DNA of 64,000 nt from Spiroplasma sabaudiense Ar-1343 (lineage in GTDB: Bacteria > Bacillota_I > Bacilli_A > Mycoplasmatales > Mycoplasmataceae): the NCBI RefSeq assembly GCF_000565215.1, contig NZ_CP006934.1, forward strand, positions 62,001 to 126,000, read 5' to 3'. Under the pieces are notes generated by a model. It saw nothing but the letters and a program-made list of their open reading frames with translations. It did no database searches and was not told the DNA's origin. Positions 33,713 to 63,088 of this stretch are shown here, piece after piece (the stretch's first letter is position 1; each line of letters opens with the position of its first letter). Both the position numbers and the translations under genes were made by a program.

Positions 33713-33902
33713 AATTATGATTAATGATTTAAAAAAACATATTTTTTTGGGTAATTAATATAAGATTTACATTAAAGCAAGTAATAATATAATACTATAA
33801 AGTGATTGTGTTTTCAAATTTAAATTATAAAAATCCTGCTATTTTAGAAATTAATTAAAATAATGCGATAAAATAAATGTACTATATTATGAAAGGATTA
33901 CC
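33713..33902 (+). other. AT-rich leader region upstream of nrdJ
   Basis: The ~300-nt gap between the importer operon and nrdJ holds the terminator at 33684-33712, a promoter at 33766-33793 and a ~100-nt leader. I looked for the conserved core of a cobalamin riboswitch and do not see it. A partial palindrome ACTATAAAGTG lies at the start of the transcript. Confidence 0.5.
33766..33793 (+). promoter_or_regulatory. Likely promoter of the B12/RNR cassette
   Basis: TTTACA (33766-33771) and TATAAT (33788-33793) with 16-bp spacing. No other good promoter is visible until after 37954, so it probably drives all three cassette genes. Confidence 0.55.
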
Positions 33903-36380
33903 ATGTATTCAAAAAAACTAATTGAGTCACTAAATAATGACATAAAAACAAATTTTCAGAACTTAAAAGAAATTAGCCCAAATTTTAAAATTACTTTTGA
34001 GGGAGTTTCTAGAATGGTTATGTTAGATCGTTATTCTCAAAAGGATTTGGGATTAAAAACTTTAAAAGTTGGCGATCTTGTAATTACAACAATTAAACCC
34101 GACCCAGTTTTTCCATCAAGAGGAATTGGTAAAATAATTAAGAAGTTAAAAGATGACCGCTTTCAAATACAAATTGAACCAAGCTATGTTGGGATCATTG
34201 ATCCAGAACTAACCATTGAAAGTGGTTTGGAAGATGTTGTCATAAAGAATTTAATTGAAATCGATAAACCCCTAGAAATCTTTTGAGAGCAAATTGCTTA
34301 TCGAGTTGGTCAAGCACTTGGAAGAATTGAAAAAACAGATCAAAAAATAATCAGCGAAAAATTCACCCAAGAACTTGAAAAATTAAATGTTATTCCTGCG
34401 GGAAGAGTTTTATTTGGTGCTGGAAGTAATAGTGCTGTAACTTTTTTTAATTGTTATGTAATGCCCTTTATAAAAGATGATCGAGTTGGAATTGCTGAGC
34501 ATCGACAACAAGTCGCAGAAATAATGAGCCGTGGTGGAGGGGTTGGAACCAATGGTTCAACCTTGCGACCAAGAGGCGCAATTGCTAAGTCTGTTGGAGG
34601 AAAGTCTTCTGGATCGGTAAGTTGATTAAATGATTTATCGGGACTAACTCACTTAATTGAGCAAGGTGGTTCACGTCGAGGAGCGCAAATGATTATGATG
34701 GCTGATTGACACCCAGACATTATCGAATTCATTATTTCAAAAATGCAAAATACAAATATTTTATTGTGATTGCGTGAACATTCACAGTCACAATTGATTC
34801 GCGAACAAGCCAACAACAAATTGCGTTTTAAGCATTTAACTCAAAATGAGCGCAAAATGCACGAAGCCATAATTCAAAATAAAAAAAATATTGATGAAAA
34901 CATTGTTGGAGACTCAAAAGCAATTTTAAAAGCCGAAGGAGTTTGAACCGTTGCAAATCCTGATTTTTTATCAGGGGCCAATATTTCAGTAACAATTACA
35001 GATAAATTTATGTGAGCGGTTGAACGCGATCTTGATTGAGAACTAAAGTTTCCTGACTTAGATTCTTTAGATGCAAAGCAAAAAAACTTCTATGACACAA
35101 ATTGAGACAAGATGGGTGATGTGTTTGAGTGGGAAAATAAAGATATGCCAACCAAGGTTTATAATAAAATCCCTGCTCGAGACCTTTGAGACCTAATTAA
35201 TTTCTGTGCAACTTACTCTGCTGAGCCAGGAATATTTTTTATCGATAAAGCAAATAAAATGACTAATGCACAAGGTTATGGAATGAAAGTTGTTGCCACT
35301 AATCCTTGTGGAGAGCAACCCTTAGCTCCGTACTCAGTTTGTAATCTAGCGGCGATTAATCTAGAAAACTTTGTAGATAAGCAAAACAAAACAATACTTT
35401 ATGAAAAATTAGCAGAAACCGTTGCCAACTGTGTTCAAATGCAAGACAACGTTATTGATGCAACTCCTTATTTTTTAGAAGCAAACAAAATTCAAGCTTT
35501 AGGAGAACGACGAGTTGGACTTGGGGTAATGGGGCTTCACGACATGCTAATTTGAGCGGGATTGCGATACGGATCTTCTGAGGCCAATAAAGTAGTTGAT
35601 AAAGTTTTTGAAACAATTTGCTTAAGTGCTTATCGAAAATCAATTGAAATTGCAAAAATAAAGGGATCGTTTCCGTTTTTAAAAAATAAAAAAGAATTTA
35701 TTAAATCAGGATTCATCCAGTCACTACCCAAAGAAATTCAAAACGATATTGAAAAATATGGAATTCGAAACTCTCACCTTCTAACGGTTGCACCAACGGG
35801 ATCAACTGGAACAATGGTGGGGGCTTCAACAGGATTAGAACCTTATTTTGCCTTTTCTTACTTTAGATCAGGAAGACTTGGTAAATTTATGGAAGTTAAA
35901 GCCCGAATTGTTGAGGAATGATTAAAATATAATCCAGAGTTCATTGATAAACCACTACCAGATATATTTGTTTCTGCTATGGAATTATCACCAGAAGAGC
36001 ACGCAGATGTGCAATGCATTATTCAACGTTGAGTTGATTCTTCAATTTCAAAAACTGTAAATGCCCCAAAAGGTTATACTGTGAAGCAAGTTGAACAAAT
36101 TTACAACCGACTATACAAAGGTGGTGCCAAAGGTGGTACAGTTTATGTTGATGGGAGTCGCGACACCCAAGTTTTATCACTAAGTGATGAGGACCAAACA
36201 ATGGAAGACAATCTTGAAGTTATTTCAGCTAATAAATTAGGCAAACCAGTTGAAGGTGAACAAAAAGTCGGTAATGAAATTGGTGATCTTTGCCCGGTTT
36301 GTTCAATCGGTACTTTAATTGATTCGGCTGGATGCGTTACTTGCAACAATTGTGGAGCTCAACTGAAGTGTGGATTATAA
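33903..36380 (+). CDS. nrdJ: Adenosylcobalamin-dependent (class II) ribonucleotide reductase
   Basis: This 825-residue enzyme reduces ribonucleotides to deoxyribonucleotides using adenosylcobalamin as the radical source. Visible landmarks: the first redox cysteine in FFNCYV (Cys184); the active-site NPCGEQPL with Asn467, the radical Cys469 and Glu471; the second redox cysteine in YSVCNLAAIN; the phosphate-binding VAPTGSTGTM; and a C-terminal CxxC zinc-ribbon-like tail (CPVC, CVTCNNC, ending KCGL) typical of class II enzymes. No NrdF-type radical subunit is adjacent. GAAAGGA precedes the ATG. The following genes encode cobalamin transport and activation functions, which supports the cofactor assignment. 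Class Ib NrdEF is the RNR I would expect in this clade. Confidence 0.9.
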
Positions 36381-36413
36381 TCAAGGGTTCATAATGAAAG
36401 TTGAGGACTTAAC

Positions 36414-37490
36414 TTGAATCAGCGTGTAAAGCTATTATTCCGCTTAACAATTATTCCAGTATATGCAGCAATGGTTGTTGGTGCAAAAGAAGCTTTGGCT
36501 TTAGTGCCAAACATTGAATTAGTAACCTTTTTATTAAGTTTTGCAGCATTGGTCTTTCCTGTTTTAATGGTTCTGGGAATAATTACGGTCTTTACTTTTA
36601 TTGAGGTTTTTATCTATTCTTATGGTGTGGCAAATTGAATGCTGTTATATTTGGTTGCTTGACCAATGTTAGTTTTAATAGTCTTGCTACTTCGTAAAGC
36701 AATTAAGTGAAATTGAATTATTTTTGTTATTATTAACACATTGTTTGGTTTTGCTTTTGGATTAATTGATGCCACTTTGAACTTCTTTGTTTGATTTAAT
36801 TTTGATTTTCCAGTAACGGTGGCATATTACTTAAGAGGAATTACTTTCGACATAATTCATGGAGTTGGAAATTGTTTGATTTCATTTATTTTATATAAAC
36901 CTGTAATGTTACTGTGAGAAAGTCATTTAAAAAAATACTTGGGAGGTATTGAAACAATGAAGCAAGAAAAAGGCTATTTTCATATTATTATGGGGGAAGG
37001 TAAAGGTAAAACCTCAGCTTTAAATGGAATGGCTCTAAGAGCAATCGGAGACGGCTGAAATGTTAAATACGTCAGATTTTTAAAAAATCGTCCCACTAGC
37101 GAAAACAAGGTTTTAAAAAAAGCCAAAATTGTTGTCGAAAATTACTACCATTTTTCAAAAAAATTTATTTGAGAGATGGATGATGCTGAACGTGTAGAAT
37201 TTAAGGCAGAAACCCAAAAAGGACTTGACCGATTAAAAAAAATTTTTCAAGACAGCAACATTGACATGGTTTTAATTGACGAAGTATTAGGAGCAATTGA
37301 AAATAAATTAATTGACGAAGATGAATTTTTACTAATTTTAAAAAATCGCAAACCTAATATTGAAGTTGCGATTTCAGGTCGATACGCATCAGATAATTTA
37401 ATTAAATATGCTGACTTGGTAAGTAAAATAGAACCCGTAAAACACTACATCGATCAAAATGTGGAATCTAGAAAAGGGATTGAATATTAA
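36414..37490 (+). CDS. ECF S component (cobalamin, CbrT-like) fused in frame to corrinoid adenosyltransferase (CobO/BtuR type)
   Basis: One uninterrupted frame of 358 codons covers two activities. Residues 1-181 are a ~six-helix membrane domain with VGAKEALALVPNIELVTFLL, typical of ECF S components related to the cobalamin carrier CbrT. Residues 182-358 are a cob(I)alamin adenosyltransferase of the CobO/BtuR type: P-loop GEGKGKTS (194-201), VLIDEVLGAI as Walker B-like strand and SGRYASDNLIKYADLVSKI at the end. The start is probably TTG 36414, with TTGAGGA upstream; ATG 36394 is out of frame and stops after 11 codons. ATG 36957 at the domain junction has a strong GGGAGG 10 nt upstream, so the enzyme may also, or instead, be made alone. 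The S part needs the EcfA/A'/T module encoded elsewhere. Confidence 0.78.
36941..36959 (+). promoter_or_regulatory. Internal SD and ATG at the S-component / adenosyltransferase junction
   Basis: GGGAGG (36941-36946) lies 10 nt before ATG 36957, which is in frame with the upstream membrane domain. No stop codon separates the two parts. The site could give a free adenosyltransferase in addition to the fusion. Confidence 0.6.
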
Positions 37491-37954
37491 TGGGTGATAA
37501 ATTTAAAATTTGAATTTATAGTTCAATTGCAGCAGTTTTCCTAGCTATTTCGGTGGTATTAAATGTTATTTTTATTTCAAAAAATTTACTTTTAAAAGAT
37601 AGCCTAAATCAAAAAGAAAATATTTTTTTAACCACAATTACCTATGACCGTGATAATAATCTTTTATATGAAAAAACTTTTGTAAATGTTGAGGCCGGTA
37701 GTTTTTATGAAATTACCAAAACAGATAACAGTTTTCAATATTCTGACCCGGGCCCTTTCGGGGTAATGTTAGAAAATGTAAAAAATTACGAAAAGGCTAG
37801 TAATGAGTATTTTGCAATAACTTCAAGTACTCACGAAAAGTGCGCAGGGAAAGGTTATGATCAAGAAAAAGAACCAAACGCTTGTGAAGTTGGAGCATCA
37901 TCTTTGATGGTAACTAAACCAGAAACTTTTGTCATTAAATTAATGGCGTTTTAA
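37490..37954 (+). CDS. Membrane-anchored protein resembling transcobalamin C-terminal (DUF4430) domain
   Basis: This 154-residue protein has one N-terminal membrane helix (residues ~8-30), no lipobox, and an extracytoplasmic domain of ~120 residues. The pattern of the outer domain (TTITYDRDNNLLYEK, then PFGVMLENVKNYEKASNEYFAI, then VGASSLMVTKPETFVIKL) resembles the DUF4430/transcobalamin-like domain that binds B12 in some surface proteins. Two cysteines flank a charged loop. The ATG overlaps the stop of the preceding gene (TAATG). The position directly after the importer-adenosyltransferase supports a role as B12 receptor. The fold assignment is tentative. Confidence 0.5.
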
Positions 37955-37961
37955 AATCAAG

Positions 37962-38004
37962 ATAATAAATAAAAACATTTTAGTTTTTATTTATTATTTT
38001 TTTT
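37962..38004 (+). terminator. Rho-independent terminator ending the B12/RNR cassette
   Basis: ATAATAAATAAAAAC (37962-37976) pairs exactly with GTTTTTATTTATTAT (37983-37997), followed by a T-tract. Confidence 0.85.
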
Positions 38005-61459: not shown

Positions 61460-63088
61460 ATGCAATTATCTTTATATGGTCTTGGTTTTGCAACCTTTTT
61501 AATTTTTGTCAGCTACACGTCAGGCAATATTATTTCCCAGGTTTTTAAATTTCGTTCAAAAAATTCTTTTTCTAACATTGCTTTAGGATTTTTTTCATAT
61601 TTTGCTACTTTGACAATTTTGTCATTCCCGCTACAATTATTTGGTAATTTACCCTATATATTTTTTATTTATTACACAATAGTTTTATCTCAGGTTTATT
61701 TGCTTGTTTGCTTATTATTGTTTCGTTATTGAATTACATCCTCAGTTTTTTCAATTGGATCAATAGTCTTTTTTACTGTTGTTTTAATTCTAATGGGAGT
61801 CAATTTTATAATTCAAATTTATTTGCGACCAGGAAATTTTGCAGAGTATAAAACCAGTTTAACAATTCTTGAGTGGTTAAAAGATAATCCTGTATCGCTT
61901 TTTAATAGCAATAACACATTATTTAACTTTTTAGGATTTAAACCAATTCAGTCTTGATACACATTTCAGCTATCAATGATACTGTTAACCGGATCACAGC
62001 CATTTGAATACGATAGTTTAATCTTGACATTTAATTTCTTTTTAGAATCATTTATTTTAGCATCGATTTTAATCACGGTTGCTATTCGATTCAATGAAGT
62101 TCAACATCAAGGTTATCGCCAAATCGGATTAGTTTCAACTATTTTACTATTTATAATGCTAAAGTTCTTTTTGGGATTTATCGATTTTGCAATTTGAAAT
62201 GAATTAACGTATTTTATTTATTTAATTTTTTATGCAATTACTTTGTTAATAAGTTATTCATCTCCAAAGTTTCGCGAAGCAAATTTACCGATGGTGATTG
62301 GATTTTTACTTGCTGGTTACATTTCGTTTTCATGGGAAAATTCATATCCAATGATTTTTTTATTGTACTGCATTGTTTTTACATTACAAAGTACGCTATC
62401 AAAAAATTACACAAAAGATATTATTAAGATTATTATGTTCCCCTTGATCAACTTAATCTTCTTCAACGTTCTTCAACGCCTTTATGTTCAGGCTGTAATT
62501 TTCTCTGTAATTATATTAATTTTCTTCTTGGTTATTTACTTTATGACAAAAAATTATTCAAAAATTATAAAATTTGAAACCGCCTTCGATAATCATAATA
62601 AGTTTTTTATGCTTTTTCTTCCGGTTGTTTTCTCAGCTATTTCATTAATTTTAATATTGTCATCAAATCAAAATTTGAAAGATATGTTTATAAATTATTT
62701 AAGCTTTATATATAAATGAACAATTTTAGTTGAACTTCCAGCGGCTCGTGAGTGAATCGCATTAATCTCAACCATTTTACTAATTGTTTTATCACTAGTT
62801 TGAATTTTTATCAGAAAAAGATTTGAACCAAGCCAAACAACAGCAATTATTGATTTAACAACGATTAGTTTTATAACTTTTTATAATCCTTTGGTTATTA
62901 GATTTATTTCCGTGATTTATAGTGATTTTATTAATCTAAATGGATTCATCATGGCAGTTCTTTTTGTTGAATTAATAACTGTGGCACTCTACTCCTTAAC
63001 AAACCGTTTTGGAAAATACTTAGAAAACCGTACCATTAAAAACCGCCCCAAAGTTAGGTATAAACCAAACTTTATTGAAATTAATTAG
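61460..63088 (+). CDS. Polytopic membrane protein of unknown function
   Basis: This 542-residue protein has about 13-14 membrane helices, with one hydrophilic loop near residues 120-170 (YLRPGNFAEYKTSL) and a short basic C-terminus (NRTIKNRPKVRYK). I do not recognise a transporter family or catalytic motif. AAAAGGAG precedes the ATG at 61460. Four or more TGA codons encode Trp. ligA starts 11 nt after the stop, so it is probably cotranscribed with ligA, but no functional link is apparent. Confidence 0.75.

Follow-up and report, generated by a model that had tools for sequence, protein, structure and literature searches.

A predicted vitamin B12 acquisition-and-use operon for ribonucleotide reduction in Spiroplasma sabaudiense

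Three consecutive genes of the wall-less insect bacterium Spiroplasma sabaudiense Ar-1343 very probably form a unit that acquires vitamin B12 and uses it for ribonucleotide reduction. They lie at positions 33903-37954 of the window that we analyzed, a stretch of 64,000 nucleotides (positions 62,001 to 126,000 of contig NZ_CP006934.1, a single chromosome of 1,075,953 bp, denoted G000:C1 below). They encode a class II ribonucleotide reductase (NrdJ), a fusion of a CbrT-type ECF S component with a BtuR/CobA-type adenosyltransferase domain, and a membrane-anchored protein with a predicted transcobalamin-like fold. What we observed is gene content, reading frames, protein families, predicted folds, co-occurrence, and adjacency; what we say below about ligand, transport, hand-over, activity, and dependence is predicted from these. 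The gene set itself is already known from lactobacilli. As far as we searched, what is new is the fusion of CbrT to BtuR, which we found in three sister genomes only, and the exchange by which a B12-dependent reductase stands in place of a metal-free one.

With genetic code 4, in which TGA encodes tryptophan, there are three consecutive open reading frames on the + strand. The first two are separated by 33 nt, and the second and third overlap by 1 nt, as an earlier note on this DNA had reported from the sequence alone. If the region is read with table 11, then the three frames are interrupted by 12, 8, and 1 TGA codons. The same frames are open in two sister genomes, so we consider all three to be genuine genes. 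The same note had proposed one promoter and one terminator for the whole cassette, and a plausible candidate is found on either side. Upstream, the best promoter match in the region is TTTACA-16-TATAAT (33766..33793, + strand), which agrees with the consensus at 11 of 12 positions and is a consensus match only; all three genus members share its -10 block. Downstream, there is an AT-rich hairpin with a T tail (about 37959..38004, + strand; -15.1 kcal/mol, z = -7.8), which is a likely intrinsic terminator. A terminator scan that requires G-C pairs overlooks this hairpin. Flanking the operon are a sugar/nucleoside-type ABC transporter and deoD.

Between the promoter-like site and the start of nrdJ, a 24-nt leader block, TTTCAAATTTAAATTATAAAAATC (33812..33835, + strand), is identical in three genus members except for one free position. 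It is possible that this block is an operator or a leader element. It occurs just once in the whole S. sabaudiense genome, so we rejected the idea that it is the operator of a regulon. The block has no match in Rfam, and an Rfam search upstream of nrdJ, at gathering level or at a permissive one, found no cobalamin riboswitch.

The first gene (nrdJ; 33903..36380, + strand; 825 amino acids) is well supported, by its family and its residues, as encoding a class II ribonucleotide reductase that would depend on adenosylcobalamin. Against NF005991, a model of vitamin B12-dependent ribonucleotide reductases, the protein reaches 1246.7 bits (the cut-off is 854), and against TIGR02504 (NrdJ_Z) it reaches 563.3 bits (the cut-off is 399.95). 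Its NPCGE motif (residues 467-471) aligns with the NPCGE of NrdJ from T. maritima, which includes the catalytic cysteine and glutamate, and the cysteines of the redox pair (in FNC and VCN) align with the same protein as well. The C-terminal tail has two CxxC pairs and resembles a zinc ribbon. These results agree with the earlier identification of a class II enzyme from NPCGE and a C-terminal CxxC.

The second gene (36414-37490, + strand; 358 amino acids) is a single uninterrupted frame that begins with TTG, opposite an ATG in both sister genomes. Sequence similarity supports its N-terminal half (residues 1-181; 36414..36956, + strand) as a CbrT-type S component, which would transport cobalamin. 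This half matches PDB entry 6fnp (ECF-CbrT from L. delbrueckii) with E = 3.8e-5 as a single sequence and E = 5.9e-27 as a profile. In the profile search of PDB, 6fnp was the only significant match, and the sole other match was another S component (4hzu_S, E = 0.5). When we ran Foldseek on a model of the fused protein, only the BtuR half gave significant matches, so the assignment of the S component rests on sequence.

The second half of the fusion (residues 182-358; 36957..37490, + strand) is similarly supported as a BtuR/CobA-type ATP:corrinoid adenosyltransferase domain, with catalysis being predicted. It matches PF02572 (E = 7e-50; model positions 1-172 of 172), its P-loop (GEGKGKT) fits GxGKGKT, and it is similar to CobA from Salmonella both by sequence (E = 2.6e-19) and by Foldseek (E = 1e-8). 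It does not reach the cut-offs of two narrower NCBI models (115.4 bits against 167.75 for TIGR00708 and 144.2 against 185 for PRK05986), so we view it as a divergent member of PF02572 that lies outside the narrower equivalog. Overall, the suggestion that an S component is joined to a corrinoid adenosyltransferase holds up. Of 395 genomes sampled across the class, the three genus members are the only ones with the fused frame.

The third gene (37490..37954, + strand) encodes a protein of 154 amino acids with an N-terminal membrane-anchor helix and a soluble outer domain (residues 42-154). A sequence search of PDB gave no match for this protein, family searches also named nothing, and DUF4430 in Pfam (PF14478) did not match the protein itself at E = 1. 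There was a weak Pfam match to "Phycodna_minor_capsid," which is below the cut-off and which we rejected in favor of the fold result. We built an AlphaFold2 model from 19 relatives (pLDDT 86.8). The best PDB match to the predicted outer domain is the DUF4430 protein 3u7z (Z = 13.2); transcobalamin, intrinsic factor, and haptocorrin have Z scores of 10.2-11.4, and the next row scores 5.5. With Foldseek, the first 19 rows are all DUF4430, transcobalamin, intrinsic factor, or haptocorrin. Thus the predicted fold is that of the beta-domain of the mammalian carriers and of bacterial DUF4430. In contrast to those carriers, the third protein is a single domain with a membrane anchor, and it lacks the alpha-domain, which in mammals contributes the remaining half of the cobalamin site. 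Its identity with the carriers and 3u7z is 12-16%. In Erysipelothrix-type genomes, relatives of the third protein adjoin cbrT and nrdJ; in Enterococcus and Lactobacillus genomes, they adjoin nrdJ. The relative beside nrdJ in Enterococcus matches DUF4430 with E = 2.3e-23, and relatives beside cbrT in two other genomes (G033 and G030) reach only E = 0.004-0.02. Given the fold match and the relatives beside cbrT or nrdJ, the transcobalamin-like pattern that the earlier note had seen in the sequence was a good call, and the third protein is a probable corrinoid-capture partner of CbrT.

The other components of the predicted transporter are encoded elsewhere. EcfT (G000:C1:837768-838505; E = 2.5e-39) is about 740 kb from the operon, and two ORFs for ECF-type ATPases (EcfA1 and EcfA2), which we assigned by reading the sequence and from context, adjoin it. 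The three genes are located among rpoA and other translation-related genes. The cassette had been described as self-contained, which it is not: EcfT, EcfA1, and EcfA2 are distant and shared. When we searched S. sabaudiense for B12-binding-domain families, no protein was over the cut-off.

We propose that the N-terminal helix would hold the third protein in place while its transcobalamin-like domain picks up corrinoid outside the cell and passes it to CbrT. Together with the shared EcfA1-EcfA2-EcfT module, this S component would import the corrinoid. Once reduced, the corrinoid would be adenosylated by the BtuR domain, which CbrT carries at its cytoplasmic C-terminus, and NrdJ would use the resulting adenosylcobalamin to form deoxyribonucleotides, whether or not oxygen is present.

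To see which genes accompany nrdJ, we considered 60 genomes from the family, of which 19 have an intact nrdJ. All 19 also have an intact btuR, 18 have an intact cbrT, and 16 have an intact transcobalamin-like gene. The association with nrdJ is strong for each of the three genes (Fisher p = 1e-13 for btuR, 4e-13 for cbrT, and 9e-10 for the transcobalamin-like gene, all of which are optimistic because the 60 genomes are related). The whole set is intact in all three genus members. The proposed link between the B12 genes and dNTP synthesis is therefore strengthened by the co-occurrence of all four genes. Physical linkage is tight for capture and import and loose for activation and use: the transcobalamin-like gene is at most 1.2 kb from cbrT in all 18 measured genomes that have both, nrdJ is at most 2.3 kb from cbrT in 14 of 19 genomes measured, and for btuR the distance is at most 2.5 kb in 6 of 18. 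The earlier note had counted nrdJ homologs without linked B12 genes against its reading, and this objection holds in part: in G016 and G058, an intact nrdJ is unlinked to cbrT, btuR, and the transcobalamin-like gene, and one further genome has no cbrT at all. It is co-occurrence and not physical linkage that carries the argument. In a phylogenetic tree, the 19 NrdJ proteins of the family form one clade apart from relatives in Erysipelotrichia and Enterococcus (support 100/99), which is consistent with an old gene that has been lost many times. Across the order, NrdJ is found in other families as well (37 of 298 genomes in all).

The genome that lacks cbrT (G022) has an intact nrdJ (G022:C1:1375148-1377679) along with btuR, a broken transcobalamin-like gene, and no NrdF. 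The absence of cbrT implies that B12 enters this bacterium by another route.

The earlier note had suggested looking through the rest of the S. sabaudiense genome for NrdE, NrdF, and the EcfA, EcfA', and EcfT components. EcfT and two ATPases were found, as described above, and the reductase subunits were not: family searches of the genome, on which these absences rest, gave no NrdF above the cut-off and no match to NrdE. With NrdE and NrdF both missing, we found no oxygen-tolerant reductase other than NrdJ in S. sabaudiense. We also considered whether NrdJ is the sole reductase and rejected this, as the genome encodes an intact anaerobic class III reductase (NrdD); hence NrdJ may be dispensable when oxygen is absent. 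NrdD enzymes are sensitive to oxygen. Since neither NrdE nor NrdF turned up, S. sabaudiense probably relies, when it grows in oxygen, either on NrdJ with scavenged B12 or on deoxynucleosides that it imports. Across the 60 genomes, ten of those with nrdJ have no NrdF, and nine have both.

In ten of the 60 genomes, our searches gave no class I, II, or III reductase (G001, G002, G015, G017, G020, G021, G025, G026, G051, and G053), which suggests that these bacteria are fully dependent on imported deoxynucleosides.

Why would CbrT and BtuR be fused? In S. culicicola, the genes are unfused and abut, with a stop codon and a ribosome site in between. In the three fused genomes, the stop has been lost, and a Shine-Dalgarno sequence and an in-frame ATG or GTG are kept at the junction; in S. 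sabaudiense, these are GGGAGGT and the ATG of codon 182 (36941..36959, + strand), with a spacing of 10 nt. Because this possible internal ribosome site is retained, free BtuR may also be made from the fused gene. The arrangement in S. culicicola and the retained site both fit the view that the fusion is a by-product of the lost stop codon, with no channelling and with the internal start supplying most of the BtuR. We give this explanation somewhat less than an even chance. Against it, the three genomes have kept the frame open while their proteins diverged by about 20%, and the linker is constant in length. More tentatively, the fusion might couple import to adenosylation: CbrT would release cobalamin into the tethered BtuR, and the internal start would tune how much free BtuR there is. 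With the transcobalamin-like receptor added, the result would be a relay from capture to coenzyme that feeds a single enzyme, in a lineage without the metal-free class Ie reductase that its relatives have and that it has lost. That the fusion is an error of sequencing or assembly is extremely improbable, as the same frame of 358 codons in three separate genomes already refutes it, and we found no point in its favor.

Two other explanations concern what the operon is for. The third protein and CbrT could import another corrinoid or a tetrapyrrole, such as cobinamide or heme, instead of cobalamin. The ligand does not follow from the fold by itself, and ECF-CbrT from L. delbrueckii carries cobinamide too (PMC5997447). 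But cobinamide would still need to be completed and would still serve NrdJ, and co-occurrence with nrdJ and btuR over 60 genomes fits a cobamide and not heme, so we think that this is unlikely. Alternatively, NrdJ might be a back-up for special conditions, with most dNTPs derived from the anaerobic NrdD or from imported deoxynucleosides, so that B12 would be useful and not limiting. The intact NrdD, the nucleoside-type transporter and deoD beside the operon, and the ten relatives in which no reductase was found (so that salvage alone can suffice) are all compatible with a back-up role. The oxygen sensitivity of NrdD enzymes argues against it, as does the maintenance of the intact B12 set in all three genus members, with no other user with a B12-binding domain found. 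We consider a back-up role possible and rather doubtful, and we favor a unit whose B12 serves ribonucleotide reduction.

The closest known system is the nrdJ-cbrS-cbrT-pduO cluster of L. delbrueckii, which has been interpreted in a like manner (PMC5997447, where Rodionov et al. 2009 is cited), and L. delbrueckii ECF-CbrT is a proven B12 transporter (PMC5997447). In both bacteria, a class II reductase, CbrT, a cobalamin adenosyltransferase, and one further gene are clustered, and the ECF module is elsewhere. The gene order differs (nrdJ, cbrT-btuR, and then the transcobalamin-like gene in S. sabaudiense), and the adenosyltransferase of S. sabaudiense is of the BtuR/CobA type and is fused to CbrT, whereas that of L. 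delbrueckii is of the PduO type (PF01923), a different family. Outside of the Mycoplasmatales, Erysipelothrix-type genomes have the third-protein gene, cbrT, and nrdJ in an operon-like run (L003, L004, and L006), but btuR is not adjacent and the S component is unfused. In a search of openly readable papers, we found no report of a fusion between an S component and BtuR. Among the papers that we found and consulted on Spiroplasma with B12 or class II reductases, we saw no discussion of the S. sabaudiense locus.

These results suggest that, in oxygen, the DNA precursors of some Spiroplasma are made with a vitamin for which only scavenging genes were found here, so B12 from the host or the community could control their growth. 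With the fused importer and enzyme, one could readily test whether ECF transport can involve vitamin channelling, and the partner of CbrT, with its transcobalamin-like fold, could be a bacterial model for how this fold captures B12.

The earlier note had described class Ib NrdEF as typical of this clade. Instead, all 23 NrdF proteins checked from the family (L164-L183, L052, L053, and L081) have V, P, and K in place of the three glutamates that bind the metal, as numbered by what we take to be the E. coli NrdF sequence, and none of the 23 is an iron- or manganese-type R2. These substitutions are the signature of the metal-free class Ie reductase (PMC11846895). The clade's alternative to NrdJ is therefore class Ie and not class Ib, and the NrdFIE type is absent from S. 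sabaudiense. Class Ie (R2e VPK), as in Mesoplasma florum (PMC11846895), has a radical source unrelated to that of NrdJ. Thus, two oxygen-tolerant reductases are found in this one bacterial family, the metal-free class Ie and the B12-dependent class II.

In S. taiwanense (L081; G046:C2:111484-123061), nrdJ, cbrT, and btuR are all broken and the transcobalamin-like gene is open. A few kb away, nrdF and nrdE are kept and open, so class II is apparently giving way to class Ie. That the three B12 genes are broken together also speaks for the B12 reading of the operon. In another genome (G050:C1:680957-687000), the transcobalamin-like gene and cbrT are beside nrdE and nrdF instead of nrdJ.
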